Below, in pieces: positions 32,369 to 48,428 of a stretch of 64,000 bases of DNA (position 1 is the first letter of the stretch; each line of letters opens with the position of its first letter). Both the position numbers and the translations under genes were made by a program. The notes under the pieces were generated by a model. That model was not told the DNA's origin and did no database searches. It was given only the letters and a program-made list of their open reading frames with translations. The DNA comes from Tropicimonas marinistellae (GTDB taxonomy: Bacteria > Pseudomonadota > Alphaproteobacteria > Rhodobacterales > Rhodobacteraceae): the NCBI RefSeq assembly GCF_001509585.1, contig NZ_LNCI01000002.1, forward strand, positions 496,001-560,000. Reading direction: 5' to 3'.

Positions 32369-33448
32369 TCACTGTGGTGTCGCGCATTGGATCTCGTGAC
32401 AGGACAACGCGCGATCAACTTGTGTGACGATCCGGTCGATTTCCGGCACTTCGATACCAAGCGATCGCCCGCAAAGCTGGACCATTCGATCAACGCGTTC
32501 GATCCTTGCGGCGCCGGCGGCTATGGCTCTGGCGAAGGAAGATGGCCTGCTGAGGGACCGGGCGGCCTTCGCGTAATGCTCAAACGGTACGATGTCCCCG
32601 TCAGCCGCGCCGGTTGCCTTCACGATGTCGACGGTCCGATCGTAAATGCGATTGCTCGTGGCGATATCGTCCTCGACGGCCCGCGAGATCGACACGATGC
32701 TTCCGTCGGAACGCAGGCATCGGCAATTGCCGGTCGTCAGCATTGGCCACTTTGCCAGAGGGACGTGCAACGACGTGTGGGCGAGGATCCTGACAGGCAG
32801 CGGACGCCCGTCGTAGCGGTACGCCGAAACATCCGAAGCAATGGTTTCGATCAAGTCCTGGTGCTTCGCGGCTGCAAAAGGCGCGACCTTGAAATTGGAG
32901 GCGAGGGTCACCGACAATTCGTTGAGGCGGGCAGGGTCGCTCCGTACGGCCTGTGCATCCGGACTGGCCGCCGAGACGAGGTCCGGTGAGAGGCTTTGCC
33001 AGGCGGCCCAGGACGTGTAGGCGCCGCGGAGCTTGTCGACATCGAGGGTCCCGAGCCGGTCAAGGAACGGCGGCGGAAGCGCATTCATCAACGATATGAC
33101 CGGAAGGCCGGCCTGTGCGATCCGCTTCACGAGTGCCGCGATCTCGGCGTCGGCGAATTGCGGCTCGCTCATGGCGAGGAACACGATGTCAAATGCGCCG
33201 AGGTCCACCTTCGCCCCGCATACACCGAGGTCGTTCGCGACGCTGGTTGTGTGAACCGCTGGCGCGGATAGGCGCGTAGCGGTCTCACCGTTGCGGCGCA
33301 GGAAAGCGATAGATGCTCCGTGGGTCGCCAGCGCAGATTGCTCCTGCGGTCGACACACGACCGTCACCCGATGCCCGGCAAGCAGTATCCGCAGCGCGGG
33401 CAGTAGGCCGTAGGAAGCACCGAGAACGAGGGCGTTGATCTGTGACAT
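32369..33448 (-). CDS. PanE/ApbA-like (ketopantoate reductase-type) oxidoreductase
   Basis: The 359-residue protein has an N-terminal Rossmann segment (INALVLGASYGLLPALRILLAGHRVTVVCRP) and the PanE-like VFLAMSEPQF and VISLMNALPPP. GASYGLL departs from the classic GxGxxG of NAD(P) sites. The C-terminal half is helical and diverged, so I would not assume ketopantoate as substrate. It starts 5 nt after the NRPS-like gene ends and is the last gene of the biosynthetic locus, suggesting a tailoring reduction or oxidation. Confidence in the fold is moderate. Confidence 0.65.
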   Translation of the reverse strand: MSQINALVLGASYGLLPALRILLAGHRVTVVCRPQEQSALATHGASIAFLRRNGETATRLSAPAVHTTSVANDLGVCGAKVDLGAFDIVFLAMSEPQFADAEIAALVKRIAQAGLPVISLMNALPPPFLDRLGTLDVDKLRGAYTSWAAWQSLSPDLVSAASPDAQAVRSDPARLNELSVTLASNFKVAPFAAAKHQDLIETIASDVSAYRYDGRPLPVRILAHTSLHVPLAKWPMLTTGNCRCLRSDGSIVSISRAVEDDIATSNRIYDRTVDIVKATGAADGDIVPFEHYAKAARSLSRPSSFARAIAAGAARIERVDRMVQLCGRSLGIEVPEIDRIVTQVDRALSCHEIQCATPQ

Positions 33449-33453
33449 GGATA

Positions 33454-36400
33454 TTATCCCTGGGATTGAACCTCAACTGACGCGCGCTTTCCAAATGTGA
33501 TCCTCCGCTCAGCGAGGCGGTTCACGCCAATCCTAATGAGGATCGGACGCACCGCCATGCCGACCGCAACGCCAATGCAGAGCTGCCAGACAACACTCGC
33601 GACCCTCAGGTCCGCGGACCCGACGAGACTGTCGAAGACCGTTTCGGCCCCTGTGTGCGTCAGATAGATCATGAGCGAATGTGCGGCGACGATCACCACG
33701 ATGCCGGACACCAGACGCGGCAGTCTCACATTGGGAACCGCGACGCAGAGGATGAGTGCAAGGACCCACCAGTACTCGGTGTGATTGCGGAAGACGAACG
33801 CACTCATGCCCAAGTGCAGAAGCGCAATGCCCAGACTGGCAACGTATCTTTGGCGCGTGTCGGCCATGGCGAATAGCGCGCCAACCACGAGGAAGGGGAG
33901 TGTCGCCGTCGGCAGCCTTTCGACGAGGTCCGGCACATCCGCGCTTCCGCCTTGTGAAATCGTGGCGGCAAGGAAAATGGCGGTGTTCACCGCCTCGACA
34001 ATCACGAAAAAGACCGCGAGCCCGCGCCATGGATCATCGGACAACCTGCGCCGGATGGCCGGGAAGCCAAGGAGAAGCGCGATGGCCAGAAACATCTGGA
34101 GATAGGCATGAAGGAACCAGAGCCACTCCGACTTGGTCTCACTCACGCCCCGCCCCAGAATGATGACATCGGTGAAATCGACCAAGTTCCTGTAGAACAG
34201 GATTGTGGACAGGTGAAGCTCGTTGTCCGATAGGGCGTGCTTGGCGAAATACACCAGCGACAGCGGCACCAACGGGACGAGCAGCCGGGCCATGAGAGCC
34301 CAGACACGTCCGACGTGATCATCTCTCAGTATCGCCGGCAACTGAAGGTGCCCGAAGGAGAATCCAGCGAGCGCGAAGAGAATGATCGATGCGCCGATCG
34401 GAGCTTTCAGATCGGTGTGAAAGGCAACGACTGCCACAATCGCAAGGGTCCGCATCAGGATAAAGGTCTCGATGCTGGAGCCCTTCAGTATCGTGGCAGG
34501 CGTTCCGCGATCCGCAGGCTCGCTGGGTTTGTGATGTGCCAGTTCCGCCACGCTCATCCAGGGCCAGCTCTCGGGCAGGTGTAGGCCCATCGCCTCCAGG
34601 TCGAGCCGGGCTTCGATCGAGGCAAGGCTGTCGGCTCCGAGATCGGAAAGGGAGTGGTCGCGATGGACGTGGTTTCGCCCGGTAAGTCTGCCAAAGAGCG
34701 CCGCAATCGCTTCTTCGGTGTCGCCGCGGGGAGATTGGCCGTGAAGGGGAGCGGAAGTCGAGGCTTCCGCGGCCAGCGCCATGGACAGGAGCGCATCGCG
34801 GTCCACCTTGCCATTGGGCGTCAGGGGAAAGCTGTCCATAACCATGATCCCCGCTGGCACCATGTATGCGGGAAGATCGCGGGCAAGCGCGGCACGGACC
34901 CTCTTTTCCGTCACATCATCTGCGGCCGCGAGCACAAACAACCGAAGCGTTTCGTCGTCGAATATCGTGCTGGCTTGCTCGACACCCGGAAGCGCCTCCG
35001 CCGTTGCCTCGATTTCGCCGAGTTCGACGCGAAAGCCGTTGATCTTGATCTGTGCGTCCCTGCGCCCGGCGTAGTAGATGAGGCCGTCCGGCAACTGGTA
35101 GCCCAAGTCGCCGGTGAAATGGCGTGACGAGGCGCTATCTGGCGACGCCGCCAACCGGTCCTTGGCACCGATAACTGGGTCGGCGAGATCGGCGACGATT
35201 TCACCGACTTCGCCGGCCGAAACCGGCGTGCCATCGTCGGACACCAATTGCACGCCAGTCCAGGGCAGGGGGCGCCCTAGGGGAATGTCACGGCGTTTCT
35301 CGGCACCGGGTGTGATCTCGTGAATGAGAAACGCCTGGGGCGTTTCGGTTGTCCCGAAAACGTTGAACTGGCGGAGTGCGGGCATCCTTTCCCGCCATTG
35401 CTCCACCGACCGGTGGGGCAAGCGTTCGCCACCCCAGAAGACCGCGCGAAGATCGGCAAACCCGCCGCCGCTTTCCATCCCCGTCGTAAGAAGACGCGCA
35501 GTTGCCGGGCTTAGACGCAGCACGTTGCAACGGGTCTTCCTCAAAAGGCCGCGAAGCGCCTCGGGCTCCGTCATTTCGCGTGGATTGGGAATGGTGACGC
35601 TCCCCCCGTGTGAGAGCGGCAAGAATACATCCCGAAGGGTCGGATCGTGAGCAAGCCCCGCCAGCATCATGGTCACAACCGGGCCGGGCAGTTGAAGCGT
35701 GCGATATTGCCATTCCACGAACCGTTGGAGCGTCCGGTCCGGATGCGTGATTAGCTTGGGTTGCCCAGTCGTTCCCGAGGTGAAGAGGTGGCATGCCGCC
35801 TCCCGAGGAGGCTCGTTGGGGGTACTTGGCTGTGCTGTGCCAGCGGAGACTGGCGATACGCGCACGATATCTGCAATCTCCGGGGGTAAAACAGCGCCCG
35901 CCTCGACGACGAAACGTGTACCGAGTTCTGCGAACATCCGTTTCATGCGCGAGGGAGGATAACTCGCATCCATCAAGGCAAACGATGCGCCGTGCGCCGA
36001 CACGCCGAGCATCGCGGCGACAAGGCTCGGATCACGTTGGGCAAGGATCACGACACGGTCATCCGCTCCAACACCTTTCGCGTGTAGCCCCGCGACCACC
36101 TCTCGTGCTCGCTCAGCGAGTTCACGATAGGTAATCCGTCCACTCGACGTTTCGATGGCCGTCGCTTCGGGCGTGCGACCTGCCCAATCGAAGAACGCGG
36201 TATGAAGCCGGGACTTCGGTTGTGGTTCCAAGCTTTGCTGCGTGTAGACGACCTCGTGACCTGTTCGCGCCGCTCTCAGGATCTGTCTGCATGTCATGCT
36301 TGGGTCGGCGATTGCAGCGTCGAGCAGGCGAGCTTGAAAATCGAGGAACTGGGTCGCCCGGTCGTTTGAGATCTGCGCGCGATCGTAGAAGGCGCGAGCC

Positions 36401-37560
36401 GTCATCACTCGCCGATCCTCAGACCACACAAGATTCAGGTCGAATTCCGTGCGCCGGTCGAGAAACTCCCGCGGTCCCACCTCAAGATCACCCGCGGTGA
36501 TCCGGGAAGCCGGCGGGAACATATTGATCGAGACGCTTGGAGCCTTGCGCGCGGCAATGACCTCCTCCAGTACCGGATCGTTTTCCAGCGCAACCATTTC
36601 GCGCGTCTGTTCCCCCACAGCGCGTGCGAGAGACGAGAATGCCTGGTCCGGATCGAAACTGAGATCCAGAGGCAGAGTCTTCGAAAACGGACCGACAACG
36701 GAATTCGGTGCGCCGAGGGATTTCCTGCCCTCCGTCTGAAAGAAACTCGAAACCCTCGTTTCTCCCGAGAAACCGTGCAGCCCCAGAGAGTAGATCGCGG
36801 CAAGAAATCCGAACTTTGTCGTGCCAATTGATTTTGCCGACGCCCGGAGCGGTTTGGAAATACCCGCGAATTCTCGTTCCAGAAAGTGCCCGGACGAGGG
36901 CTCCTCGCCATCGGCTATTCCATCCCCCACGATCCGAACAGGAGTTGGCAAGGAATTGGCTGTCGCTTGCGCCACATCTGAACGCGGTACCGGACCGAAC
37001 CTGTCGGGGCGCGTGAAATCATAGTAGGAGGCAGCGGGGGAGAGCGTTTCGCCCACATAGAGCTTGAGCAATTCCTTTGCCATGACGCCACGCGAAAACC
37101 CGTCCGTTGTCGCGTGATGCGCCGCTATCGTGAAACGCCAGCGCCCGCCGAGATCCGCCGCCAGGATACGGATCAGTGCACCCGGATTGCGCGGGTCGAC
37201 ATCGTCAAACACGCGCGGCAGCGCCCACTCACGGAACGCCGCGAAGCTTTCGTCTTCCAATCGGCAGGTGTGATAGCGAAACGCCGCTTCCGGAGACAGA
37301 AACGCATGCACCGCGCCATCTGCCACGTCAAAGCGTGTGCGAAGCGCATCGTGACGGTGTACCAAGGCCTCTGATGCCGACCGAAATGCGCCCTCGTCAA
37401 ATGCACCCTCGACGAGGTGACCCATTGAAATCATGTAGGATCCCAAACCGGCGAGTTCAGACAAGACATAGCGCGTTTGGTTGTCGCTCGCGGCGACACG
37501 GGTATCTCCTACGACCTCAGCGTTGTCCGTCTTGGAAATGTCTCCAAGTCTATGAAGCAA
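33454..37560 (-). CDS. NRPS-like protein: condensation-adenylation-carrier fused to a membrane acyltransferase-3 domain
   Basis: The protein has 1368 residues. The condensation domain (about 25-430) has the active-site HHATTDG at 148-154. The adenylation domain (about 450-930) has FTSGTTGQPK near 595, GGERLP and FGTTET near 709-740, TGDLG at 816, KINGFRVELGEIE near 838 and NGKVDRD at 916. The carrier has LGADSL with phosphopantetheine Ser978. After that comes a multi-helix membrane domain (about 1030-1345) with the acyltransferase-3 hallmark R-X10-H (Arg1037, His1048). There is no thioesterase or reductase. TTG 37560 has CAGGAG at good spacing. It suggests loading one amino or other carboxylic acid and handing it to a membrane acyl transfer step. 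This architecture is unusual. Confidence 0.88.
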   Translation of the reverse strand: MLHRLGDISKTDNAEVVGDTRVAASDNQTRYVLSELAGLGSYMISMGHLVEGAFDEGAFRSASEALVHRHDALRTRFDVADGAVHAFLSPEAAFRYHTCRLEDESFAAFREWALPRVFDDVDPRNPGALIRILAADLGGRWRFTIAAHHATTDGFSRGVMAKELLKLYVGETLSPAASYYDFTRPDRFGPVPRSDVAQATANSLPTPVRIVGDGIADGEEPSSGHFLEREFAGISKPLRASAKSIGTTKFGFLAAIYSLGLHGFSGETRVSSFFQTEGRKSLGAPNSVVGPFSKTLPLDLSFDPDQAFSSLARAVGEQTREMVALENDPVLEEVIAARKAPSVSINMFPPASRITAGDLEVGPREFLDRRTEFDLNLVWSEDRRVMTARAFYDRAQISNDRATQFLDFQARLLDAAIADPSMTCRQILRAARTGHEVVYTQQSLEPQPKSRLHTAFFDWAGRTPEATAIETSSGRITYRELAERAREVVAGLHAKGVGADDRVVILAQRDPSLVAAMLGVSAHGASFALMDASYPPSRMKRMFAELGTRFVVEAGAVLPPEIADIVRVSPVSAGTAQPSTPNEPPREAACHLFTSGTTGQPKLITHPDRTLQRFVEWQYRTLQLPGPVVTMMLAGLAHDPTLRDVFLPLSHGGSVTIPNPREMTEPEALRGLLRKTRCNVLRLSPATARLLTTGMESGGGFADLRAVFWGGERLPHRSVEQWRERMPALRQFNVFGTTETPQAFLIHEITPGAEKRRDIPLGRPLPWTGVQLVSDDGTPVSAGEVGEIVADLADPVIGAKDRLAASPDSASSRHFTGDLGYQLPDGLIYYAGRRDAQIKINGFRVELGEIEATAEALPGVEQASTIFDDETLRLFVLAAADDVTEKRVRAALARDLPAYMVPAGIMVMDSFPLTPNGKVDRDALLSMALAAEASTSAPLHGQSPRGDTEEAIAALFGRLTGRNHVHRDHSLSDLGADSLASIEARLDLEAMGLHLPESWPWMSVAELAHHKPSEPADRGTPATILKGSSIETFILMRTLAIVAVVAFHTDLKAPIGASIILFALAGFSFGHLQLPAILRDDHVGRVWALMARLLVPLVPLSLVYFAKHALSDNELHLSTILFYRNLVDFTDVIILGRGVSETKSEWLWFLHAYLQMFLAIALLLGFPAIRRRLSDDPWRGLAVFFVIVEAVNTAIFLAATISQGGSADVPDLVERLPTATLPFLVVGALFAMADTRQRYVASLGIALLHLGMSAFVFRNHTEYWWVLALILCVAVPNVRLPRLVSGIVVIVAAHSLMIYLTHTGAETVFDSLVGSADLRVASVVWQLCIGVAVGMAVRPILIRIGVNRLAERRITFGKRASVEVQSQG

Positions 37561-37814: not shown

Positions 37815-39425
37815 TCAGCTTGCTTCTTCGGTTTCACCACACCCGATCTCGGATTTCAGATGATCCGCAAGCCTCAGCGCCAAGGCCACGATGGTCAGCG
37901 TCGGATTGACATATCCCCCCGTGGGGAAGACCGAGCTTCCCGCAACGTAGAAGTTGCGGGTACCGTGCAATCGGCAGTCGGGGTCGACCACGCCATTGTC
38001 GGGGTCGGAGGACATGCGCGTGGTTCCCATGTGGTGTTTGCCACCTTCCATGCTGACCGGAAAACCCTCGCGATCGGTCGCTCCATGCAGGCTAAGCTTC
38101 CCGATCCCGGCGGCGTCAAACCACCTGACGAGCCCCGACCGCAGACGATCAATCCCGCCGCGGTCGTGATCGCTGAGCCTCCAGTCGACTTGTAATTGTG
38201 GCATTCCGAAGCGATCACGGCGTTTTGGGTCGAGCCGAATGCGGCTCTCCGGGATCGGCAGGGCCTCGAGTGTGAAGCGGGCCGCGAAGGTTCTCTTTTT
38301 CGAGAACGCTCCGCGAACCCGTTCGGTCGTTGAACGGGTCACGTCGCCGGCATTCGTGAACAGCGCCGGTATATGGCGTTGAAGGCGCCCATCGGGTAAT
38401 TCGCGGTGCATCATCACGTCGATCACACGGGTCATCGCAACGCCGCCCCGCGACAGAAAGTGAGGCGAGGATTTATGCGCGGCGCGTTCGACGAAGAACA
38501 CGCCCGCGCCGTTCAGGGCCTCCTCGCGCCGCAGCCGCTCGCTAACGGCGAAAGCACCATGCGCGCGCTGCGCGGAGCCGGCCTGTTCATACCCCTTCAG
38601 AGCACCGATTGCCTCTGGTTCCACGCCGTCGGCAAGTTGCACCGAGCCGCCGAAAAAGAACGGGTGGTCCATGAAGTATCGCCCGACGAGGTCGCGCGCA
38701 TTGCCGACACCCTCCGCTTGAACAGATCGCGACGCAAGCAGCAGGCGCGCGTTTTCCATTCCACCGCAAGCCAGCACGAACCGGTCCGCGACGACGCGCA
38801 CGTTACGGCCGTCGTCGCCACGGGCCTCGATGTGGGAAACCGTGTCGCCATCCGGAACGATCTCGACCGCGTGAAGATCGAAAAACACCCGCACATCTCG
38901 GGCCGCGTCGAGATCCGCTCCGAATACCTGTGCGAAATCGACGTTGTGTCCATGCCGGTATCGAACCGGAGCAATGTCTGCGTCCGGGCCAAACGACGCG
39001 CCGGCGAAATCGGGGCGCTCGAACCGCCAATCGTCCAGGTCGCAGACGGTTGCGGCTTGGCGATAGTAGGGCGCGAGCGTCTCGGCGCCAATGGGCCATC
39101 CTGTATTCGGTAGTCCGGCGCGGGCTTCGAAATCGACTGGGTCAAGGGGGCGACACTGACCGGCCCAACGGGTGGTACTGCCGCCGAACATGCGCAGGCG
39201 TGCCTTGCCGGGGGCAAAGCTCTCCCGGCCCACGTTTCTGCCATGATAAAGGATTTGGCTCTTGTGGCGGAAATCTCGCCCGCCGCCGGCCAGCATGGCC
39301 ACCTCGATACCGTGCCCGGAAAGTGCGCGTGCGATTGCGATTCCGGCAGCGCCGGCTCCGATGATGCACAGGTCCGCCTCAATCGTCGTGCCGGGTGCCA
39401 CATCTCGTTTTTCGACAATGGTCAT
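37815..39425 (-). CDS. GMC-family FAD-dependent oxidoreductase
   Basis: The 536-residue flavoprotein has the N-terminal dinucleotide motif (DLCIIGAGAAGIAIARAL), GGSTTRWAGQ as the FAD-contact segment, VLACGGMENARLLL, and the C-terminal GMC catalytic region. That region has HHMGTTRM, GVVDPDCRLHG, NFYVAGSSVFPTGGYVNPTLTIVALALRLADHL. It probably oxidises an alcohol, possibly a sugar hydroxyl, given the glycan-type neighbours. The ATG overlaps the stop of the AP-superfamily gene upstream (ATGA). A 254-bp gap then separates it from the NRPS-like gene, the only real break in this locus. Confidence 0.88.
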   Translation of the reverse strand: MTIVEKRDVAPGTTIEADLCIIGAGAAGIAIARALSGHGIEVAMLAGGGRDFRHKSQILYHGRNVGRESFAPGKARLRMFGGSTTRWAGQCRPLDPVDFEARAGLPNTGWPIGAETLAPYYRQAATVCDLDDWRFERPDFAGASFGPDADIAPVRYRHGHNVDFAQVFGADLDAARDVRVFFDLHAVEIVPDGDTVSHIEARGDDGRNVRVVADRFVLACGGMENARLLLASRSVQAEGVGNARDLVGRYFMDHPFFFGGSVQLADGVEPEAIGALKGYEQAGSAQRAHGAFAVSERLRREEALNGAGVFFVERAAHKSSPHFLSRGGVAMTRVIDVMMHRELPDGRLQRHIPALFTNAGDVTRSTTERVRGAFSKKRTFAARFTLEALPIPESRIRLDPKRRDRFGMPQLQVDWRLSDHDRGGIDRLRSGLVRWFDAAGIGKLSLHGATDREGFPVSMEGGKHHMGTTRMSSDPDNGVVDPDCRLHGTRNFYVAGSSVFPTGGYVNPTLTIVALALRLADHLKSEIGCGETEEAS

Positions 39426-40942
39426 CGGATCCCTCCGCCGAGCAACGCTCGCCCCCGCATCTCGTCTGGGACAGCCGCGCCCAGACGCGCGAGGATCGTG
39501 GGTGCGAGGTCGACAATATTACCTGATGGGGCGCTGCCGGGCGTCGTTCCGGAGCCCGACACGAGGTAGAATCCGCCCGCCCGGTGATTGCCCGATCTTC
39601 CGCTGGGATGACAGCCAGGGGTGGGCCAGTCGATAGTGCCGAAACGCGGTGAAACAATCGCGCGATGCCGCGCGGCCGGTGTGTCGTTCCAGTCCACCAT
39701 GAGGTCCGGGAGCCTGTCACGATTGGGGCCGGGCGGAACCACGTCCTCGACGCGGGCTGTTTGGCGGACCACCGGTTCACCTGTGTCGGCATCGGCGAAA
39801 CTTGCGAGACCCTCGACGATCCGTTGCGTGATCTCGTCCGCCTGTGCCGCTGTCAACATGCCCTGGTTCTCCCTGCCTTTTCGGTTGAGGCGAATGTACC
39901 CGGTCAGATCGGCCACCTGGGTCAGGGCCGGTGTCTTCTGCCAGTCGCGCCCGCCGGTGCGCCAGAAGCCCGTCAGCCTGTCCTGAAGGGACGTGGGAAG
40001 GCTGTCCTTCACGCGGTGGCGCAAACGAGGCGGCAAGGCGTGACGTATCCGCTGCATCGTCGACAGCGGTGAGACGTTTTGGCTCTCTTCACCGAGCACG
40101 CGGTCGAGCATGGCGTCGAGAACCTCGACCCGGCTGGTGTTCGGCCCCATACCGTGCAGCGAAAAGAGAATGACCTCATCGGGTTGTGCCGCGTCCAGCA
40201 CCCGGCCGAGCGCCTGGTCGGTGGCGGCATAGACGGCGGGCAGGGCAGCCTCCAACTCGCGTTGCTCGGCAGCCGTCGGCGGTGTGAGAAGACCCGTTTC
40301 GTCCCAAAGCCAATGACCGCCGCGGTGAAGCCCGGGGAAGGTAATTGCGAAGAGATCGACGGTTTCGCGTTGCAGCAAGTGCTCCGAGATTTCGGCGAGC
40401 ATGCCGGCAATTTCCACCTGTTCGTCCCTGAGCTTGCGCAGCGCGTCCATCGACTGCAGCGCGTGCATCTCCGCCACTCGCGGAGATCCGCCGTGCCGCG
40501 CGGTGATATCTGTCAGCAGGGACGAAGGATGGGATCTGGGCGGCTCCAGGCTGTCGAGCGTCGCCCAACCGGTAAGCTCGATGCCCGTGCTCGGCGCGGA
40601 GGCAAAGGGCATGTCGATCGCGATCACCCGGCCACCTTCGTCGGCAATCCGGCGCCAGAACGGTTCGCCCGGTTGCCGCGGGTCGGGGCGGCGCATGGTC
40701 ATCGTCTGGGGCGACCACTGCAGGTAGTGGTGAAAACCTGTGTCGGACGGCGGTGACGAGGTGAAGAAGCTCGGCCAAACCGAGCCGGGCAGCCATCGGC
40801 CCAATGAGTCGAGATTTCCAAGGGCACCTTCGGCGAGCAGACGGCCGATGACCGGCGCCTGACCCTGATCGACGCAGCGCTGCAGAATTCCCATGTCGGC
40901 AGCATCCAGCGCCACCAGGACAATTTTCGCGCGTCCTGTCAT
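39422..40942 (-). CDS. alkaline-phosphatase-superfamily protein, paralog 1 (diverged active site)
   Basis: The 506-residue protein resembles AP-superfamily phosphodiesterases/phosphomutases: ALDAADMGIL near the N-terminus (metal Asp), SVWPSFFTSSPPSDTGFHHYLQW (nucleophile region), LHRGGHWLW, FSLHGMGPN and GNHRAGG. Its two paralogs read GTVWPSF or GTPWPSF and PPEHG at the equivalent site. Here Ser replaces Thr and PPSDTG replaces PPEHG, so catalysis may differ or be lost. No signal peptide is visible, so it is probably cytoplasmic. It overlaps both neighbours by 4 nt. Substrate unknown; a phosphorylated sugar or lipid intermediate is plausible. Confidence 0.75.
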   Translation of the reverse strand: MTGRAKIVLVALDAADMGILQRCVDQGQAPVIGRLLAEGALGNLDSLGRWLPGSVWPSFFTSSPPSDTGFHHYLQWSPQTMTMRRPDPRQPGEPFWRRIADEGGRVIAIDMPFASAPSTGIELTGWATLDSLEPPRSHPSSLLTDITARHGGSPRVAEMHALQSMDALRKLRDEQVEIAGMLAEISEHLLQRETVDLFAITFPGLHRGGHWLWDETGLLTPPTAAEQRELEAALPAVYAATDQALGRVLDAAQPDEVILFSLHGMGPNTSRVEVLDAMLDRVLGEESQNVSPLSTMQRIRHALPPRLRHRVKDSLPTSLQDRLTGFWRTGGRDWQKTPALTQVADLTGYIRLNRKGRENQGMLTAAQADEITQRIVEGLASFADADTGEPVVRQTARVEDVVPPGPNRDRLPDLMVDWNDTPAARHRAIVSPRFGTIDWPTPGCHPSGRSGNHRAGGFYLVSGSGTTPGSAPSGNIVDLAPTILARLGAAVPDEMRGRALLGGGIR

Positions 40943-42522
40943 TCCTTCTCCCGCAACTTGACAAGTTCACTGATGGGATTGCCGCGCATGTCGACAGGTT
41001 GTGTAAGGCCGAAATGAGCAAACACGGTCGCGGTCAAATCCTGTACCGGGTGCGTCGAAGCGGCTTCGGAGCCGGGGCCCTGACCGGGCCCACAGGCAAG
41101 CGCCCATCCGAATGGCTGGTGGTGACCTGACCGCCCGTCAGGTTGCGTGTCTTTCCACGGGTTGAGGAAAGCGCCGTAGTGTTCGGATTTCAACGCCCCA
41201 AGCCCCATCGGCGAGCGATGCGCCCATCGAACCACCAGATCGGGTGCGTCGCGTCGTTCCCTTGCATCGGGCCAAAGCTCCGCGGTCGGCCACACATCCG
41301 CTATGATCGGTTCGCCGGAATCCGCATCCACGAAACTTGGCAAACCCTGTACGAGCTTCTCGCAAAGCTCGTTGTATTCGCGTCCGGGCGCAACGATCCC
41401 GTCGCGCTCGCGTCCGCGCACGTTCAACCGCACCTGGCCTTCGAAATCGCTTCCGATCAGGCGAAACGCCCGCACAGAGGACCAGTCGCGTGCCTCCGCC
41501 CGGCGCCAGTAGCGGCCGAGTCCGTCCTTGACGCTGACCGGGAGGTTCTCCTTCACGGCGCTGCGCCACTCCAAAGGCACCCTTTTGCGAATGCGATGCA
41601 GCAAAGGTTCCGTCGGCAACGGTTGCCCGGTGGCGTCCGACCTGTCGTTGTTGAGGATCCGGCGCAGCATCTCCGGCAGAAGGAAGTGATGCGACGTGTT
41701 CTGGACCATGCCATTCAGTGAAAAGACGATCAGCGGGCAGCCCGGTGGAAGCGCGTCGACGACTTCTCCGATCGCAGCGTCGCAGGCCACATAGACGTCT
41801 CGAAGCGCGTCGGAGACCTCGTTGTTGGCGGAGGCAGCGTCCCGGAGGATGAGCGGTGCCTGAAGCTTGTGTCCGGCCCGGTGCGCGGCGCCGAAGCCCA
41901 GAACCAACAGGTCCCATTCCGTCGTCCCGATCAGATCGCGCGCGAGTGCGGATTGCTGCCGTGCAGTCGCATTCAACCGGTCGCGCAGGCGTAGTAGGCC
42001 CTTGGCGGTCTGGGGCCCGTAGATTTCATCGCGCATGATCGGGCGGCCGTGGCGGCGCTGCATGCGGGCGGCAAGATCCTCTGGCCAGGACCCTCTGTTC
42101 CCGCGCACCGCATGCGCGTTCCAGGAGACGATCTCGGTGCCGTTGAACGGGCGGGCGGAGGGCGCGAAGGGCGCGTCGATCGCGAGCACGCGCGGGCCGT
42201 CATCGCCGAATTTCCGATAGAACGGCGTGGTGTCGATCCAGCCGTCCTCGTCGGGGCGCTCGTGGCGCATCGTCTCCGCACGCCACTGGACGATCCCGAA
42301 GATTCCGTGCTCGGGCGGAAGCAGGCCGGAGTAGAAGCTCGGCCACACTGTCCCGACCATGATGTCGCTGTCCGACTTGAGACGAAGGAATGTCCCCTGT
42401 TCCCGCAGCTTGGCCAGTCGTGGCAACCAGCCGGCGGCAATGCCGGCCGTTATCAGGTCGATCTCGGCGGCGTCGAAGGCGATCATCGCCAGTTTCGGAA
42501 ACTGCGACTGCCCGGGCGTCAT
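40939..42522 (-). CDS. alkaline-phosphatase-superfamily protein, paralog 2
   Basis: The 527-residue protein has AFDAAEIDLI, GTVWPSFYSGLLPPEHGIFGIVQW, AIDAPFAP, GAAHRAGHKL, FSLNGMVQNTSHHFLLPEML and SGHHQPFGWALACG. The Thr before VWPSF fits the nucleophile position. The FSLHGM motif of the other paralogs reads FSLNGM, losing one potential metal His. The start is ATG 42522, which forms an ATGA overlap with the epimerase stop; the longer open frame upstream overlaps that gene. Sequence similarity to paralogs 1 and 3 runs the full length, so the three arose by duplication. No export signal. Confidence 0.75.
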   Translation of the reverse strand: MTPGQSQFPKLAMIAFDAAEIDLITAGIAAGWLPRLAKLREQGTFLRLKSDSDIMVGTVWPSFYSGLLPPEHGIFGIVQWRAETMRHERPDEDGWIDTTPFYRKFGDDGPRVLAIDAPFAPSARPFNGTEIVSWNAHAVRGNRGSWPEDLAARMQRRHGRPIMRDEIYGPQTAKGLLRLRDRLNATARQQSALARDLIGTTEWDLLVLGFGAAHRAGHKLQAPLILRDAASANNEVSDALRDVYVACDAAIGEVVDALPPGCPLIVFSLNGMVQNTSHHFLLPEMLRRILNNDRSDATGQPLPTEPLLHRIRKRVPLEWRSAVKENLPVSVKDGLGRYWRRAEARDWSSVRAFRLIGSDFEGQVRLNVRGRERDGIVAPGREYNELCEKLVQGLPSFVDADSGEPIIADVWPTAELWPDARERRDAPDLVVRWAHRSPMGLGALKSEHYGAFLNPWKDTQPDGRSGHHQPFGWALACGPGQGPGSEAASTHPVQDLTATVFAHFGLTQPVDMRGNPISELVKLREKE

Positions 42523-43505
42523 ACCAGACCCTCCCTCTGCATCCACTGGGTCGCCCGCGTAACCGCCTGCGTAACACTGAAGCGCGGCGAAAATCCGAGC
42601 CGTTCCACCGTGCCGCCCACGTCGAAGTGGTTCGGCCAGGCATAGAACTCTGCCGTGAATCCGTAGGGCAGTTCGCGGCCGACCAGCCGGAAGGTCATAT
42701 CGTTCAGCCGCTTGTGGAACCGGATGGGGCCGCCGGGAAAACGAAGTGGCGCGAGATTTGCCCCGAGCGTTGTTGCAATCGCTGCCAGGATTCTGTCCAC
42801 CGCCGCCGGTTTCCGAGCCGTCAGCACATAGGTCTCGCCCGCGCGCGCCTTGTCGCCGGCGCAGAGTTGGAGGCCGATGATCACGTCCTCCACATCGCAA
42901 CTGTGCACGCCGCCACCGCGCGGGAGCAGCCGATACCGGCCGTCGCGGACGGCGCAAACGATGGAGCGCCAGTCGATTGCGCCCGGGCCGGCGACCCGTT
43001 CGGCGATCCGGGCGATTCTGAAGTCGAGCCCCTTTGGCGCCCAATGCTCGGTCAGGCGGCGTTCCGCTGCGGCGCGCGATGCGGAATAGTTCGAACTCGG
43101 GCGCGGCGGCACCGAAAGTGCAGGCGTTGCCGGTGGCCATCCACTCATCACCTTCACGGTACTGGCCGCGACGAGCCGTGCACCGGCCGCGCTGGCGGCT
43201 TCGGCAGCGACGTCCAGAAGATCGATGTTTAGTCGAAGGTAGTCTTTCCGCGGCAGTTTCTTCGTGCCGCGGACCGCAGCGAGGTGATAGACGACCGAAC
43301 ACCCATCGGCTGCGCGCGCCATGAGCGGGCCGTCGGTGGCGTCGCCGAGAAAAGTCTCGACGCCAGCGACCCGCAGGTCCGCCACATCGTGCTCCGGCCG
43401 GGCCAGCGCTCGGACAGGCGTGTCGGCGCGGCGCAGTTCCATCGCCAGGCGCTGCCCGATAAACCCGGCAGCGCCGGTCACCAGTACCGGGTTGTCTCCG
43501 GTCAT
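42519..43505 (-). CDS. NAD-dependent epimerase/dehydratase-family (extended SDR) protein
   Basis: The 328-residue protein has the cofactor motif VTGAAGFIGQRLA, VVYHLAAV and SNYSASRAAAERRL. The catalytic YxxxK of extended SDRs reads YSASR, with Arg in place of Lys. The Ser/Thr before it (AASTVKV) is kept. Such proteins act on nucleotide sugars or prenyl-linked sugars, which fits the glycosyltransferases nearby. It lies between two AP-superfamily paralogs with 4-nt overlaps on both sides. With the Lys-to-Arg change, activity must be tested rather than assumed. Confidence 0.8.
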   Translation of the reverse strand: MTGDNPVLVTGAAGFIGQRLAMELRRADTPVRALARPEHDVADLRVAGVETFLGDATDGPLMARAADGCSVVYHLAAVRGTKKLPRKDYLRLNIDLLDVAAEAASAAGARLVAASTVKVMSGWPPATPALSVPPRPSSNYSASRAAAERRLTEHWAPKGLDFRIARIAERVAGPGAIDWRSIVCAVRDGRYRLLPRGGGVHSCDVEDVIIGLQLCAGDKARAGETYVLTARKPAAVDRILAAIATTLGANLAPLRFPGGPIRFHKRLNDMTFRLVGRELPYGFTAEFYAWPNHFDVGGTVERLGFSPRFSVTQAVTRATQWMQREGLV

Positions 43506-45070
43506 TCCTGTGCCGATGCTCCCGTAGGTGCCAGGCCGGGCACCGGTGTGCCGCGCATTTCGGGACGCATCTTCTGCCCCAGAAGGTCGTGAACGCTGGC
43601 GAGCAGGTCGTGTTCGTGGATCAGAGACAAGTCACCTTGCCCGGAGATGTCCGCGCCGGATGCCACGAACCAGCCCTCTCCGACATGGTGGCCAGGCCGT
43701 CCGTCGACGTACCCGCCGTGATCGTAGTTGCGGACAGTGCCGTAGCGCTCCGAACGGTAACCGCGGATGCTGCGGGCGCTGCGTACTGGCGAATAGACAA
43801 TCATGTCAGGCATGGTCCGGCGCTGCACGGCGTCCGGCCAAATCTGCGACCCGCGATGGATCTCCCGCACCAGCGGCTCGCCGGTGTCCATATCGACGAA
43901 GGACTTCATGCCATCGCTGATTTCATCAAGCAGGGTCTCGTATTCGGCGCCGGGAGAAACAATGCCCTCGCGCTCGCGCCCTTTCAGGTTCACCTGGATC
44001 AGCCCTTCGAGGTCGCCGGCAAGGATGAATGCCTTGGTCTTGGACCAGTCGCGCTTGTCGCTGCGCCAGTACATTGTCATGGCGTCCTGAACGCCGAACG
44101 GCAGCTGGGCCTTGATGCGGGAGCGGAGGCCAAGCGGGATCGACTCGCGGACCTGCGACAGCGGCGACCGGGTGAGTTCCTCTGGATCGTCGCGCTTCTC
44201 GTCGTCGAGAATGCGGCGCAGCATCCGGTCGAACAGAGGCTGAACCGAGTAGTTCTCGGTCATACCGTGCAGGGAAAAGGCAATCACGTTGACGTCTTCG
44301 CCCGCCGCTTCCAGAAGCTCACCGAGCGCTTTGTCGGTGGCGATGGCGACCTGCCGCATCGCATCATCGAGGTCCGCACCCTCTGCCTCGGTCATCTCGC
44401 CCTGGCTTCCGTGACGGTTCCAGAGCTTGTGACCGGCGCGGTGGACGGAACCGAAACCCAGCATGAACAGGTCCCAGTCGTTTTCGCGCATGAGCATCTT
44501 TCCGGCCTTGCAGTGCCAGTCGGCGGCGGCAATGAGCTCGTCGCGCAGGCCGAGCAACTCCTTCGCGCTCTGCAACCCGGCGAATTCGTCCGGGATCGGC
44601 AGGGGGCCGAGTTCCTTCTTGACCCGCTCGATCAACCCCAACGGATAGGCGCTCGGTGCGCCGATCTTGTCATGCGTGCCCCAGCCGGTCAGTTCGACAC
44701 CGTTGAAGGGTTTTGGCGCATAGGTGATCGGCACGTCGATGGCGATCGTCTTCGGCCCGTCGAGTGGGAAGTTCCGGTAAAAGGGTTCGATAGGCTGCCA
44801 GTCGGGCGTGGCACGCATGAACCGCATGAGGTCGGGTCGCCACACCAGGTAGAAGAGCCAGCCGTGCTCCGGTGGGAAGCTGCCGGTGTAGAAACTTGGC
44901 CATGGCGTCCCCACCAGGTGGTGCGCGGTCGAGTCGATTTTGCCATGAGCGCCACTTTCGCGGAGCCTTGCAAGGTTCGGGAGCGATCCGTCGTCCATCC
45001 ACCGGGTCATCCGGTCCGACGGAGAGGCATCGACCGCGAGGAGCATGAGCTTTCTGGGTTTTTGTACCAT
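43502..45070 (-). CDS. alkaline-phosphatase-superfamily protein, paralog 3
   Basis: The 522-residue protein has LLAVDASPSDRM, HHLVGTPWPSFYTGSFPPEHGWLFYLVWR, AIDVPITYAPKPFNGVELTGWG, GSVHRAGHKLW, FSLHGMTENYSVQPLFDRMLRR and GRPGHHVGEGWF. It keeps the Thr, the HG and the LHGM motif, so it is the best-preserved of the three and the likely active reference. In most AP-superfamily enzymes the last motif is S/T-DHG; here Leu stands before His in all three. I start at ATG 45070, as the longer upstream frame overlaps the GT2 gene. No signal peptide. Confidence 0.75.
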   Translation of the reverse strand: MVQKPRKLMLLAVDASPSDRMTRWMDDGSLPNLARLRESGAHGKIDSTAHHLVGTPWPSFYTGSFPPEHGWLFYLVWRPDLMRFMRATPDWQPIEPFYRNFPLDGPKTIAIDVPITYAPKPFNGVELTGWGTHDKIGAPSAYPLGLIERVKKELGPLPIPDEFAGLQSAKELLGLRDELIAAADWHCKAGKMLMRENDWDLFMLGFGSVHRAGHKLWNRHGSQGEMTEAEGADLDDAMRQVAIATDKALGELLEAAGEDVNVIAFSLHGMTENYSVQPLFDRMLRRILDDEKRDDPEELTRSPLSQVRESIPLGLRSRIKAQLPFGVQDAMTMYWRSDKRDWSKTKAFILAGDLEGLIQVNLKGREREGIVSPGAEYETLLDEISDGMKSFVDMDTGEPLVREIHRGSQIWPDAVQRRTMPDMIVYSPVRSARSIRGYRSERYGTVRNYDHGGYVDGRPGHHVGEGWFVASGADISGQGDLSLIHEHDLLASVHDLLGQKMRPEMRGTPVPGLAPTGASAQE

Positions 45071-45084
45071 CGTTTTGCGTCCAA

Positions 45085-46062
45085 TTACTTGTTGAGATTC
45101 CCGTGCATGACGGATGCTTTGCCCTGCCTGGGTGGCGGGTCGACTTCGTGGAGCCCTTTGCGAAACCCAACCGTCCAGGCGGCAGCCCCGATCAGCAGGA
45201 AGGGTGAAACCAGCGCGGTCGCCGGCAGTTTCAATGGGCTCAGGGCGGTCACGCGACCGAAGATGTAGATCAGCCGCCGCAGAACGACCGCGGGCGCCAT
45301 TACAGCCATTCCGGCAAGCCGCACCTGTCGGTCGGTCAGGAGCAACCGCAGCTTTCCGCGAGAATATCCGAAGGCATGATGGTGACGGATCATGCCTGCA
45401 ATCGTTCTTCGGCCAGCGTGGCGGACCTGCATCTGGGGGTTGAACCGGATGCCCTCCGGCCAGAGCGCGGTCAGGCGTTCGCAGAAATCCACGTCCTCGC
45501 CCGTTGCCAACCCCTCCCGGTGCTGGAACCCACCAAGATTGGCGAAATCCTCGGCATGTATGGCGATATTGCACGAAGGTGCCATGTGCAGGGTGCCGGC
45601 CGGGCGCTCCGGGGGCAGGTCCGCGAACTGGAGAAGGTTGTCGGCACGTGCGATTGGGTGCCGTGGCGTGAGATCTGCCACTGGGCCGGTTGCAAGACGA
45701 GCGCCGCTTTCGAGCGTGGCGACTGCGGCGGCCAGCCATCCCGGTTGCACGCGGCAGTCGGCATCGACAAAGACAAGGACTTCACCCTGCGCGGCGTTTG
45801 CGCCGAGGTTGCGGGCCGCGCCCGGCAGGTGGCCGCTGCCTTGGCGGACAACGCGCGCGCCCTCGGCTTCGGCGGCCGCCTTGATCGTGTCGTCGCTCCA
45901 GGCATCGACGACGATCACTTCGAACGAACGGTCGAGCGCTTGAGCCAGTACGTCGCGCAGGAGCCACACGAGCGCCTCGGGGTTCCCCTTGCAGGGAATG
46001 ACGACTGAAACAGCCGGCGCTCCGTCAATCCGCGGCGTCATTTCCGGGTTGCGCTCATCCAT
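45085..46062 (-). CDS. GT2-family glycosyltransferase with C-terminal membrane segment
   Basis: The 325-residue GT-A fold protein has VSVVIPCKGNPEALVWLLRDVL, VIVVDAWSDDT, the metal-binding DADCRVQPGWL (DxD), ASCNIAIHAEDFANLGGF and TGEDVDFCERL. It ends with a hydrophobic region (AGMAVMAPAVVLRRLIYIF and ATALVSPFLLIGAAAWTVGF), so it is membrane-attached. GGAGG lies 9 nt before ATG 46062. It overlaps the flippase gene by 8 nt. It probably adds a sugar to a lipid-linked acceptor on the cytoplasmic face. Confidence 0.85.
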   Translation of the reverse strand: MDERNPEMTPRIDGAPAVSVVIPCKGNPEALVWLLRDVLAQALDRSFEVIVVDAWSDDTIKAAAEAEGARVVRQGSGHLPGAARNLGANAAQGEVLVFVDADCRVQPGWLAAAVATLESGARLATGPVADLTPRHPIARADNLLQFADLPPERPAGTLHMAPSCNIAIHAEDFANLGGFQHREGLATGEDVDFCERLTALWPEGIRFNPQMQVRHAGRRTIAGMIRHHHAFGYSRGKLRLLLTDRQVRLAGMAVMAPAVVLRRLIYIFGRVTALSPLKLPATALVSPFLLIGAAAWTVGFRKGLHEVDPPPRQGKASVMHGNLNK

Positions 46063-47368
46063 CGCGCGGTGCCTCCGGAGCGGGTACGCGCGATGCGCGA
46101 AGGATAAGCAGGATGAGGATGGCGGCGGCGAGGCATTCGGTGGCAAAGGTCGTCCAGGCCGCACCGAGGGCGCCATGACGCGGGATCACCACCGCGTTCA
46201 ACGCAGCATTGGCAATCGCCGTGACCGTCAGAATCCCCAAACAATCCCGTTCCCGGTGCAGGGCGCCTGCCAGATGCAGCGCTGCCATGCCCAGGAAGAG
46301 CGGAACGGTGGACAGAGCCAGGACCGTGAAGATTGCGGCGCTCGATCGGTAGCCGCTTCCCCAGACGGTAACCACAATCGGCTCTGCTAACGCGATGCAA
46401 ATGACGGCAAGGACCGCGCCGGCGAGGCTCACGGCGGTCAGCAATTTGCGGATGAGTCTGCCGAGCTCGTCGCCGCGGCCGGTCGCGGCCATGGCGGCGG
46501 CAATCGGAACAAAGACCATCATGAGAGGCCTGATAAGGGTGCGCGTGACCTCCAGGAGACGATAGGAGGCTTCGTATTCTGCCACTTGTGTGGCAGTGCT
46601 CAGGGCGAAAATCATCAAAACGTCGACCTTGCCCTGCAGCAGCAAAACGATCTCGGTAAACAAAAACGGCGCGGCCACCGTCAGCATCGGTTTGAGCCGC
46701 TCGAAACGCCATTCGAGGTGCGGACGACCCAAGCGCGCGCGCGTTGCCAGAGCGGCGACGGTGACCATCAGGGCATTGGCGCAAACGTAGAGCGCCAGGA
46801 CTGCTGGCAGCGACCAGCCGAGGAAGACAGCGAGAGACGACAGCGCAATCAGCAACGGTCCGATGGCGCCGACTGCCAGCCGCAACCCCATCCAGCGAAA
46901 CCCGACGAACACCGCCGAGTAGGAGAAGAACAGATCGCCAACGAGCATGTAAGCGGTGCAGAGCGCCGAAATGGCCAGCATGTCCGGTGATAGCAGGGCG
47001 ACGGCTGCGTTGATCCCGACGAAGAGAACGACAATCGACACGAGGCGCAAGGGCAGCACCTGACCGAGCATATCCAGCGCCTCGTCGGGGCGCTGTGCCA
47101 CCGACCGGCGCAATTCACGGTCCGTGCCGAGGTGGCTCGCGGTTGCCGCAATTGACGCGACAACGCCGAAGAAAAAGAACTGGCCGATCAGGTCCTTGTC
47201 GAAATGGCGCGCGAGGACCATGGCCGCAACAAGCCCGGGCAGTTTCTGCACCAGTTGCGAGAGCACCGAGAGAACAAGGTCCCGTTCCCATCCGGTGATG
47301 CGAGCGATGAGCGCCGCGGTCCTCGGGCGATCTTGCGGCACCTCGCGCATGTCAACCGGCCGCGACAC
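46055..47368 (-). CDS. oligosaccharide flippase (Wzx/MOP-type polysaccharide biosynthesis protein)
   Basis: The 437-residue protein has about 12-14 predicted helices and the polysaccharide-export look of the MOP superfamily: LVLSVLSQLVQKLPGLVAAMVLARHFDKDLIGQFFFF at the N-terminus and FERLKPMLTVAAPFLFTEIVLLLQGKVDVLMI in the middle. It would flip a lipid-linked glycan to the periplasm. GTG 47368 has GGAAGG upstream; ATG 47350 is a weaker alternative. It overlaps the GT2 genes on both sides. No Wzy polymerase or Wzz is in the locus, so the product may be a single unit rather than a polymer. Confidence 0.85.
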   Translation of the reverse strand: MSRPVDMREVPQDRPRTAALIARITGWERDLVLSVLSQLVQKLPGLVAAMVLARHFDKDLIGQFFFFGVVASIAATASHLGTDRELRRSVAQRPDEALDMLGQVLPLRLVSIVVLFVGINAAVALLSPDMLAISALCTAYMLVGDLFFSYSAVFVGFRWMGLRLAVGAIGPLLIALSSLAVFLGWSLPAVLALYVCANALMVTVAALATRARLGRPHLEWRFERLKPMLTVAAPFLFTEIVLLLQGKVDVLMIFALSTATQVAEYEASYRLLEVTRTLIRPLMMVFVPIAAAMAATGRGDELGRLIRKLLTAVSLAGAVLAVICIALAEPIVVTVWGSGYRSSAAIFTVLALSTVPLFLGMAALHLAGALHRERDCLGILTVTAIANAALNAVVIPRHGALGAAWTTFATECLAAAILILLILRASRVPAPEAPRDG

Positions 47369-48428
47369 GGATCACCTTCCAGTAGAGCTGAAGTCCCGCG
47401 GAGAGAGCCGAGATCATTGCCTTGAGCACGCGGTTCGACACCAGGCCCTCGGTGAGTGGCAAGGGACCGCCTTTGAGGATTGCCCTGTCCGGCAGTTCCC
47501 TCCGCGACTGGACAGCCTGCCGCATCTCCGCGACGTGCCCACGGTTGGCCAGCAACCATCGCCAACTCGCGGCCCATTGGGGCAGCCACCCTCGGTGCAG
47601 CGCAAGCGCGAGGGTTGCGATCTCATACAGCACAAGGGCAGGGGCAATCACCAGCATGGTACGCCAGCGGAAGCAGATCGCGATGGTCAGAAGCCGGTTC
47701 CGCATTGACAGATAGGCGCGACGCTGCGGATATGCGCCGCTCCCTCTGAAGGACAATCCTGAGTAACCCGAACCCCGGTCATGCACGACGACGGCGCGCG
47801 AAGCGCTAACGATGTCATGTGCGCGCAACCGCATGCGAAGACCGAACTCCAAATCCTCGAAATAGAAAAAGAATGTCTCGTTGAATCCCCCGGCATCCAG
47901 GGCAGCCGCGCGGTCGACAAGCAGGAAGGTGCTGATCAGCCCATCGACCGGGACCGGTGGCTGACCGGTGTCCGGCGCGGTGTTCGCATTCAGCAGGATC
48001 AACGTGCCGATGAAATGCGGTGCGGCGCCGTCACATTGGACCACGTCTTCGCCCGGGGCGAAGATGAGGCGGGGGCAAACAACGGCGGCACCGGTTTTGG
48101 CACGGGCCCCCAACATTTCCGCCACCGCGCCGGGCGTGAGCCGCGTGTCCGAATCCGCCAGGAGAACGAGGGGGTTGGCAGCAGCCTCCAGCCCCCGGTT
48201 TCGGGCAGCCGACGGGCCCGGATTGTCGTTCAACCGGACGACTTTCGTGGTCGGATAGGCGGAGAGGGCAAGCTCGACGCTTCCGTCCTGTGAGCCGTTG
48301 TCCACAAGGATGATTTCCTCGACGCCAACGCCGTGGTCGTGAATGGAACGGATGCAGGCGACGAGACGCTCCCCTCCGTTGTAGTTTATGACGACGGCGC
48401 TGAGCGTCGGATCCGGCACGTCACTCAT
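47352..48428 (-). CDS. GT2-family glycosyltransferase (rhamnosyltransferase-like)
   Basis: The 358-residue GT-A protein has LSAVVINYNGGERLVACIRSI, IILVDNGSQDGSVE, GPSAARNRGLEAA, LLADSDTRLTPG (DxD), DGLISTFLLVDRAAALDAGGFNETFFFYFEDLEFGLRMR (acceptor/base region) and a C-terminal membrane-associated stretch (MLVIAPALVLYEIATLALAL). This arrangement is typical of rhamnosyl- and related transferases of surface glycans. ATG 48428 overlaps the GT4 stop by 4 nt (ATGA). The sugar donor cannot be told from sequence. Confidence 0.87.
   Translation of the reverse strand: MSDVPDPTLSAVVINYNGGERLVACIRSIHDHGVGVEEIILVDNGSQDGSVELALSAYPTTKVVRLNDNPGPSAARNRGLEAAANPLVLLADSDTRLTPGAVAEMLGARAKTGAAVVCPRLIFAPGEDVVQCDGAAPHFIGTLILLNANTAPDTGQPPVPVDGLISTFLLVDRAAALDAGGFNETFFFYFEDLEFGLRMRLRAHDIVSASRAVVVHDRGSGYSGLSFRGSGAYPQRRAYLSMRNRLLTIAICFRWRTMLVIAPALVLYEIATLALALHRGWLPQWAASWRWLLANRGHVAEMRQAVQSRRELPDRAILKGGPLPLTEGLVSNRVLKAMISALSAGLQLYWKVIRVAAG

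Follow-up and report, generated by a model that had tools for sequence, protein, structure and literature searches.

What becomes of an amino acid activated by a nonribosomal peptide synthetase (NRPS) module when the chain that carries it runs straight on into the membrane? The question is raised by a single gene in a 64,000-nucleotide stretch of the Tropicimonas marinistellae genome (contig NZ_LNCI01000002.1, positions 496,001 to 560,000; hereafter the window), whose product joins condensation (C), adenylation (A) and carrier (T) domains to a transmembrane (TM) domain of the acyltransferase-3 (AT3) family. The reading favoured here, at a probability of roughly 0.6, is that the protein acts as a self-contained inner-membrane aminoacyl transferase, in which the phosphopantetheine arm of the carrier would feed the AT3 pore instead of coenzyme A (CoA). 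The gene and its parts are as follows.

33454..37560, minus strand: C-A-T-AT3 fusion gene, one open reading frame (ORF) of 1368 amino acids with a TTG start and no internal stop
36256..37491, minus strand: condensation domain, about residues 24-435 (ends approximate), by Pfam Condensation
37099..37119, minus strand: HHATTDG active-site motif, residues 148-154, by motif position
34756..36210, minus strand: adenylation domain and its C-terminal subdomain, about residues 451-935, by Pfam AMP-binding and AMP-binding_C
35332..35646, minus strand: substrate-pocket residues 639, 640, 643, 682, 708, 710, 734, 742 and 743, by motif alignment
34807..34809, minus strand: K918, tenth pocket position, by motif alignment
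34525..34725, minus strand: peptidyl/acyl carrier domain, about residues 946-1012
34627..34629, minus strand: Ser978, phosphopantetheine attachment site by motif (GADSL)
33526..34473, minus strand: AT3 (TmAT-fold) transmembrane domain, about residues 1030-1345
34417..34452, minus strand: Arg1037-X10-His1048 in TM helix 1, by motif position
34459..34461, minus strand: Ile1034, at the Asp position of DxxR in most standalone AT3s
34378..34380, minus strand: Leu1061, at the position of the TM helix 2 (TMH2) Phe of standalone AT3s
34294..34296, minus strand: Leu1089, at the first-Arg position of the TMH3 RxxR in standalone AT3s

A preliminary description, made from the letters alone, had proposed that a C-A-T module and an AT3 domain share one chain, and a Pfam scan of the protein (E up to 0.01) bears this out with five families: Condensation (E 6.9e-26, in two stretches, the best covering residues 24-174), AMP-binding (E 8.6e-55), AMP-binding_C (E 2.4e-6), a weak PP-binding match (E 0.0029; 18.2 bits against a cut-off of 20.8) and Acyl_transf_3 (PF01757; residues 1034-1337, E 8.9e-11, 41.8 bits, above the curated cut-off of 31). 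The carrier is also backed by the predicted structure and by a profile search of solved structures, which matched the carrier part of PvdL (E 7.8e-5) and many acyl carrier proteins (ACPs). The HHxxxDG motif, A-domain core motifs and carrier serine of an NRPS module are all present, and HHATTDG (148-154), Ser978 in GADSL, and Arg1037 and His1048 with ten residues between them lie at the positions first reported. That the gene is on the minus strand, and that its AT3 domain is short of several residues common in standalone AT3s, had escaped the preliminary description. The module has the C, A, T order of a protein such as EntF, with its motifs intact; EntF is arranged as C-A-T-thioesterase, whereas in the window protein a transmembrane acyltransferase sits at the thioesterase position. 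No thioesterase, reductase or SGNH domain is found among the five Pfam families, the AT3 match stopping at residue 1337 of 1368 with the C-terminal SGNH domain of the AT3-SGNH type absent, and this supports the claim that amino-acid activation and a membrane acyltransferase domain coexist in one protein with no recognised release domain. Since the AT3 centre would transfer the acyl group off the carrier, the AT3 domain would itself be the release domain. Comparison of the predicted structure with known folds assigned the TmAT fold to this domain; Foldseek alone did not find that fold, with no match at E below 0.1.

The fusion is neither a chance event nor a frameshift, because six other genomes encode this chain unbroken; together with the uninterrupted ORF, this rules out the joining of two genes by a sequencing or chimeric-gene artefact. 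Nor are the two parts always separate among homologues, the other circumstance in which the preliminary description would have failed: seven full-length C-A-T-AT3 proteins are known in total (1342-1377 amino acids), alignable from end to end and 46-62% identical to the window protein, and all seven keep H148, H149, D153, G154, carrier Ser978, Arg1037 and His1048. C is 68%, A 64% and T-AT3 58% identical to the nearest homologue, so no part looks to be decaying. The protein is present as one full-length copy in its own genome and is rare elsewhere. At 1e-60, two of 60 relatives (the own genome included) match, namely the own genome and G004, and a T-AT3 alignment scan of genome contigs gave five loci, in Tropicimonas sediminicola (taken to be G004), two uncultured Roseobacter, a Gemmobacter nectariphilus metagenome-assembled genome (MAG) and an alphaproteobacterial MAG (taken to be G175), the last encoding A-T-AT3 only. 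At the family level 10 of 394 genomes match, comprising the own genome, G481 and G605 with full-length fusions, and eight genomes, including G605, with one A-T-AT3 protein each (824-920 amino acids). At the class level the figure is 2 of 385 (the own genome and G175), and at the phylum level 9 of 398 genomes, all of the same class, match a 16-row T-AT3 profile. Among 708 matching plasmid records none had one place covering 80% of the full protein, and 37 stretches of viral contigs matched a pattern, none of which codes for a relative.

The evidence that carries the favoured reading lies in the donor site. Excerpted text of PMC12423673 lists the TmAT residues that surround acyl-CoA; R317 and F285 were equated with R345 and F313 in another paper on the assumption of a numbering offset of 28, a match of our own. 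The corresponding columns were read from a hidden Markov model (HMM) alignment of 32 carrier-linked AT3s (seven C-A-T-AT3, fifteen A-T-AT3, one split pair, three from the second lineage, whose carrier site reads TS or SS, and six from plasmids) and 44 standalone controls. The near-identical pairs L034/L108 and L105/L106 each count as two, and L111, with an alignment gap at the TMH1-Asp column, was scored as lacking Asp (Gly by eye). Controls came from PF01757 searches, with 29 matches from new loci and the added L116 among those used; the ORF of L057 was picked by HMM, one of 45 control loci had no HMM match, and L049 and L114 were left out as copies of L115 and L087.

Across these sequences, three residues that lie at the CoA site or close to it are absent from nearly all carrier-linked domains while the core residues are kept. 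TMH1-Asp/Glu occurs in 1/32 carrier-linked AT3s against 33/44 controls, TMH2-Phe in 3/32 against 43/44, and the first Arg/Lys of the TMH3 RxxR in 0/32 against 43/44; the second RxxR Arg/Lys is intermediate (17/32 against 43/44). Retained positions are TMH1-Arg/Lys (32/32; 43/44 in controls), TMH1-His (32/32; 44/44), TMH2-Gly and TMH6-Gly (each 32/32; 43/44) and TMH9-Tyr (30/32; 41/44). The window protein follows this pattern, with Ile1034 for the Asp of DxxR, Leu1061 for the Phe of FxxxxG in TM2 (Gly1066 kept) and, in the RxxR of TM3, Leu1089 for the first Arg (Arg1092 kept), while R-X10-H and Tyr1299 are intact. It thus shares with the AT3/TmAT superfamily (PF01757; OafB, OatA, HGSNAT) the Pfam match, the predicted fold, R-X10-H, TMH2-Gly, TMH6-Gly and TMH9-Tyr, and differs in its carrier fusion, in the loss of TMH1-Asp, TMH2-Phe and TMH3-Arg, and in lacking an SGNH domain; by predicted fold and core motif it is an AT3, and by its donor site a variant one. 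A carrier immediately precedes TM1 in the 16 proteins aligned for this point. That an ordinary acetyl-CoA-fed O-acetyltransferase has been fused here by chance, acetylating a glycan or the C-A-T product, would agree with the retention of Arg1037, His1048 and Tyr1299 and with the use of acyl-CoA by those AT3s that have in vitro donor data (excerpts of PMC9558356), but it is distinctly improbable given that TMH3-Arg/Lys and TMH1-Asp/Glu, mostly kept in standalone AT3s, are gone from 32 and 31 of the 32 carrier-linked ones, and given the carrier placed right before TM1.

A tree of 71 AT3 domains, from which the six plasmid ones were excluded, divides the carrier-linked AT3s between two clades, one of 23 (100/98) and one of three (100/97; L110, L111 and L115, a second, separate adenylation-carrier-AT3 lineage whose carriers have TS or SS for DS). 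The smaller clade nests with three standalone AT3s whose branches are starred and in two cases flagged as long. TMH1-Asp (except in the split pair L102) and TMH3-Arg are absent from both carrier-linked clades, and their loss may well be convergent for that reason. TMH2-Phe is absent only from the larger clade; a universal loss of this residue in carrier-linked AT3s was considered and dropped, since the three second-lineage proteins keep it.

How the parts might work together can be set out as follows. In the cytosol, the A domain would adenylate the side-chain carboxyl of an amino acid that is probably dicarboxylic (glutamate or alpha-aminoadipate, for instance) and load it onto the phosphopantetheine of Ser978; there the N-terminal C domain could attach an acyl or aminoacyl donor to the amino group of the loaded amino acid. 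The carrier is tethered some 50 residues ahead of TM helix 1. Its pantetheine arm would then enter the AT3 pore, taking the place of CoA, and the Arg1037/His1048 centre would move the acyl group to an acceptor on the extracytoplasmic side. The substrate class is suggested by the pocket, whose ten positions read DPRRFGVQAK, with D, P, R, F, G, Q and K identical in all seven homologues (DMRHFGFQAK in the divergent relative L125). D-P-R-H codes belong to A domains that activate a side-chain carboxyl, namely that of alpha-aminoadipate in Lys2 and of iso-Glu in McyE, and D-P-R-x-F-G-x-Q-x-K would, by comparison with these codes, point to side-chain activation of a glutamate- or aminoadipate-like amino acid. 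The aminoadipate reductase model TIGR03443 is among the better NCBIfam matches, far under its cut-off (175.6 against 1030 bits).

The C domain is the first domain of the chain, with only a short leader before it, and first-position C domains of lipopeptide lines are named starter C domains in the excerpted text of PMC1894796. It is conceivable, then, that the protein is an aminolipid synthase, whose starter C domain would place a fatty acyl group on the nitrogen of the amino acid bound to the carrier and whose AT3 would esterify the lipoamino acid to a lipid or a second alcohol. A Trp is missing after the SYYDF stretch (motif C4 by our reading), at a position that the same text calls unconserved in starters. 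Motif C2 and the motif Asp are likewise described there as unconserved in starters, but the seven homologues conserve both RHDALRTRF (C2) and Asp153 well, which weakens the starter assignment and speaks for an ordinary C domain; nor was any lipid gene seen among the scanned neighbours of the homologues, and an aminolipid product seems rather unlikely. With C2 and the motif Asp kept, the C domain may draw its acyl or aminoacyl donor from another carrier.

Several points weigh against a carrier-fed aminoacyl transferase. Literature searches for the substrate codes just cited found none. The second lineage keeps TMH2-Phe, the split L102 keeps TMH1-Asp, 11 of the 44 standalone controls also lack TMH1-Asp/Glu, and TMH1-Arg is retained although it, too, lines the cytosolic entrance in HGSNAT. 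The controls are the best Pfam scorers and are biased toward canonical residues; Fisher p values for 32 against 44 are far too small, since the sequences are related, and the tree requires no more than about two independent origins, with some standalone rows there long-branched. The Asp is reported as dispensable in OacB (excerpts of PMC12423673), and the authors of PMC9558356 favour CoA over an ACP as donor.

The window protein has many simpler relatives. Besides full-length fusions, the arrangements include A-T-AT3 without a C domain, one split A-T and AT3 pair (L102, in G623, two genes overlapping by 8 nucleotides with a flippase nearby) and one broken-looking C / A-T-AT3. T-AT3 queries matched 87 and 84 plasmid records (Rhizobium 43, Leisingera 17, Rhodococcus 6, and others), the window's own T-AT3 matching seven, and all six records inspected combine an adenylation motif, Pfam match or AMP-binding annotation with a carrier motif and AT3. 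The A-T-AT3 proteins (called 'AMP-binding protein' in annotated plasmid records; Rhodococcus, Leisingera, Phyllobacterium) resemble the window protein in their carrier-fused AT3 and residue losses, and unlike it have no C domain; in nine non-plasmid cases compared, their adenylation part is 24-29% identical to that of the window where aligned, a 25-residue match aside. There is about an even chance that these form a widespread, so far unrecognised class of carrier-fed transmembrane AT3s in which the CoA pocket has been dismantled and the arm of an attached carrier is taken from the cytosolic face. The window protein would be the most complex of them, with an entire NRPS module ending in a membrane pore that acts as release domain and passes a side-chain-activated amino acid to an outside acceptor.

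Two lines describe the neighbourhood of the gene.

32369..33448, minus strand: ketopantoate-reductase-like dehydrogenase, 359 amino acids; Pfam ApbA E 0.001, below cut-off
37815..49699, minus strand: upstream neighbour genes for a GMC oxidoreductase, phosphodiesterase-like proteins, an epimerase, two GT2, a flippase and a GT4

The upstream genes make it tempting to suggest surface-glycan decoration, in which the activated amino acid would be placed on an exported polysaccharide or lipid-linked precursor, as in the Dlt and AlmEFG systems. The window gene adjoins glycosyltransferases, a flippase and an epimerase, and glycan genes also lie near some A-T-AT3 relatives (Wzy_C and a sugar transferase at L033, GT2 at L035 and L036, the flippase at L102). 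Against this, a Pfam scan of 30 neighbours of the other six full-length homologues found no glycosyltransferase, polymerase or flippase and one epimerase (G481), and A-T-AT3 genes of Rhodococcus and Phyllobacterium adjoin ABC transporter genes instead. Glycan decoration is thus possible but doubtful, and the membrane glycolipid that the preliminary description had suggested as direct acceptor is likewise no more than possible, while a pathway shared with the upstream neighbours is unproven. The only gene types common to the window and the 30 neighbours are the dehydrogenase, the GMC oxidoreductase and the epimerase, all in G481; besides the dehydrogenase no operon partner repeats among the neighbours seen, and the window holds no further gene with a C or A domain, nor do the 14-19 kb surrounding each of the six homologues. 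The fusion gene therefore seems self-sufficient. Alternatively, this one protein might make a small metabolite, such as an aminoacyl compound that chelates iron or serves as a signal, and expel it on release; that would fit the lack of a conserved partner gene in most genomes and the ABC transporter genes beside A-T-AT3 relatives (L103, L120, L122). No conserved transporter or receptor adjoins the full-length homologues, however, and the AT3 acceptors described in excerpts of PMC9558356 are sugars and glycosylated compounds, and such a product is unlikely.

The simplest account, by analogy, is that the window protein is a one-protein counterpart of Dlt and AlmEFG, with an AT3 pore taking the acyl group from a tethered carrier. 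The Dlt system (DltA, DltC, DltB, DltD) likewise combines an adenylating enzyme, a cell-retained carrier and a membrane acyltransferase, and AlmEFG uses adenylation, a carrier and an acyltransferase to place an amino acid on lipopolysaccharide (both in excerpts of PMC3783018). In contrast to the window protein, both consist of separate proteins; Dlt has no C domain and its DltB is an MBOAT, taken as unrelated to AT3 (excerpts of PMC9558356), so that the window protein is not a Dlt member, and AlmG has an LPLAT domain. No description of an AT3 fused to NRPS, carrier or AMP-binding parts was found in the open-access literature, as far as its excerpts extend, and one may be in print elsewhere; PMC554113, in the part available, lists these domains only separately. 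What is new here is the loss, in carrier-linked AT3s, of residues in or close to the CoA site, whereas acyl-CoA is what the AT3s of known donor use. Bacterial surface sugars of many kinds are modified by AT3 enzymes, and a carrier-fed branch, if real, would explain how acyl groups never present as CoA esters cross the membrane and would give NRPS assembly lines a new mode of product release, outside the cell. Moreover, how AT3 pores hold their donors becomes testable through point mutants at a few positions.

The dehydrogenase starts 5 nucleotides past the end of the fusion gene, downstream on the same strand, and is possibly a tailoring enzyme. In G481 a 59% identical homologue adjoins the fusion gene with a 4-nucleotide overlap, these being the only two of seven cases with such a neighbour; there was no match at E 1e-8 in G004, G781, G782 or G783. 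Other relatives occur in G605 (two, 41-42%) and as a second copy in the own genome (40%), and those on three plasmids lie near oxalate or one-carbon metabolism genes, a setting that gave no clue to the role of the enzyme. An identity as opine dehydrogenase was not supported, the only matches being weak ones to ketopantoate reductase. Upstream, three phosphodiesterase-like (AlkP-type) genes stand in the glycan cluster (39422-45739, minus strand) with the epimerase between two of them; one has no Pfam match and is related to the others by eye only. In T. sediminicola, HypD, HypF and an AIRS protein (hydrogenase maturation) lie upstream of the fusion gene and a heavy-metal ATPase downstream. The T. 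marinistellae genome also holds a large NRPS gene, an open frame of 3456 amino acids, at positions 315183-324578 of contig C37 (G000, inside L014).

Among the relatives, genes resembling glycosyltransferases by eye lie near L102, and on a Pseudorhodobacter turbinis plasmid (L125, 3182-7218) the C domain and A-T-AT3 are encoded by two abutting ORFs in different frames, the sequence around the C/A border of this divergent relative appearing frame-shifted. Three distantly related bacteria have ABC transporter genes directly beside A-T-AT3, in two cases on the same strand, which hints at a transported product: L120 (7561-14176; a Rhodococcus opacus plasmid, annotated as iron transport), L122 (6603-13710; Phyllobacterium) and L103 (725-7544). 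In an alphaproteobacterial MAG (L013, 6451-15574, the same place as L019) A-T-AT3 clusters with an MBOAT, a flavin-mononucleotide-dependent dehydrogenase, an FkbH-like protein (below cut-off) and a small carrier (by eye), placing two kinds of membrane acyltransferase alongside one carrier system. Finally, a standalone AT3 gene adjoins A-T-AT3 at L035 (5162-6304) and L124 (7608-8630), where a two-step acylation may be meant.

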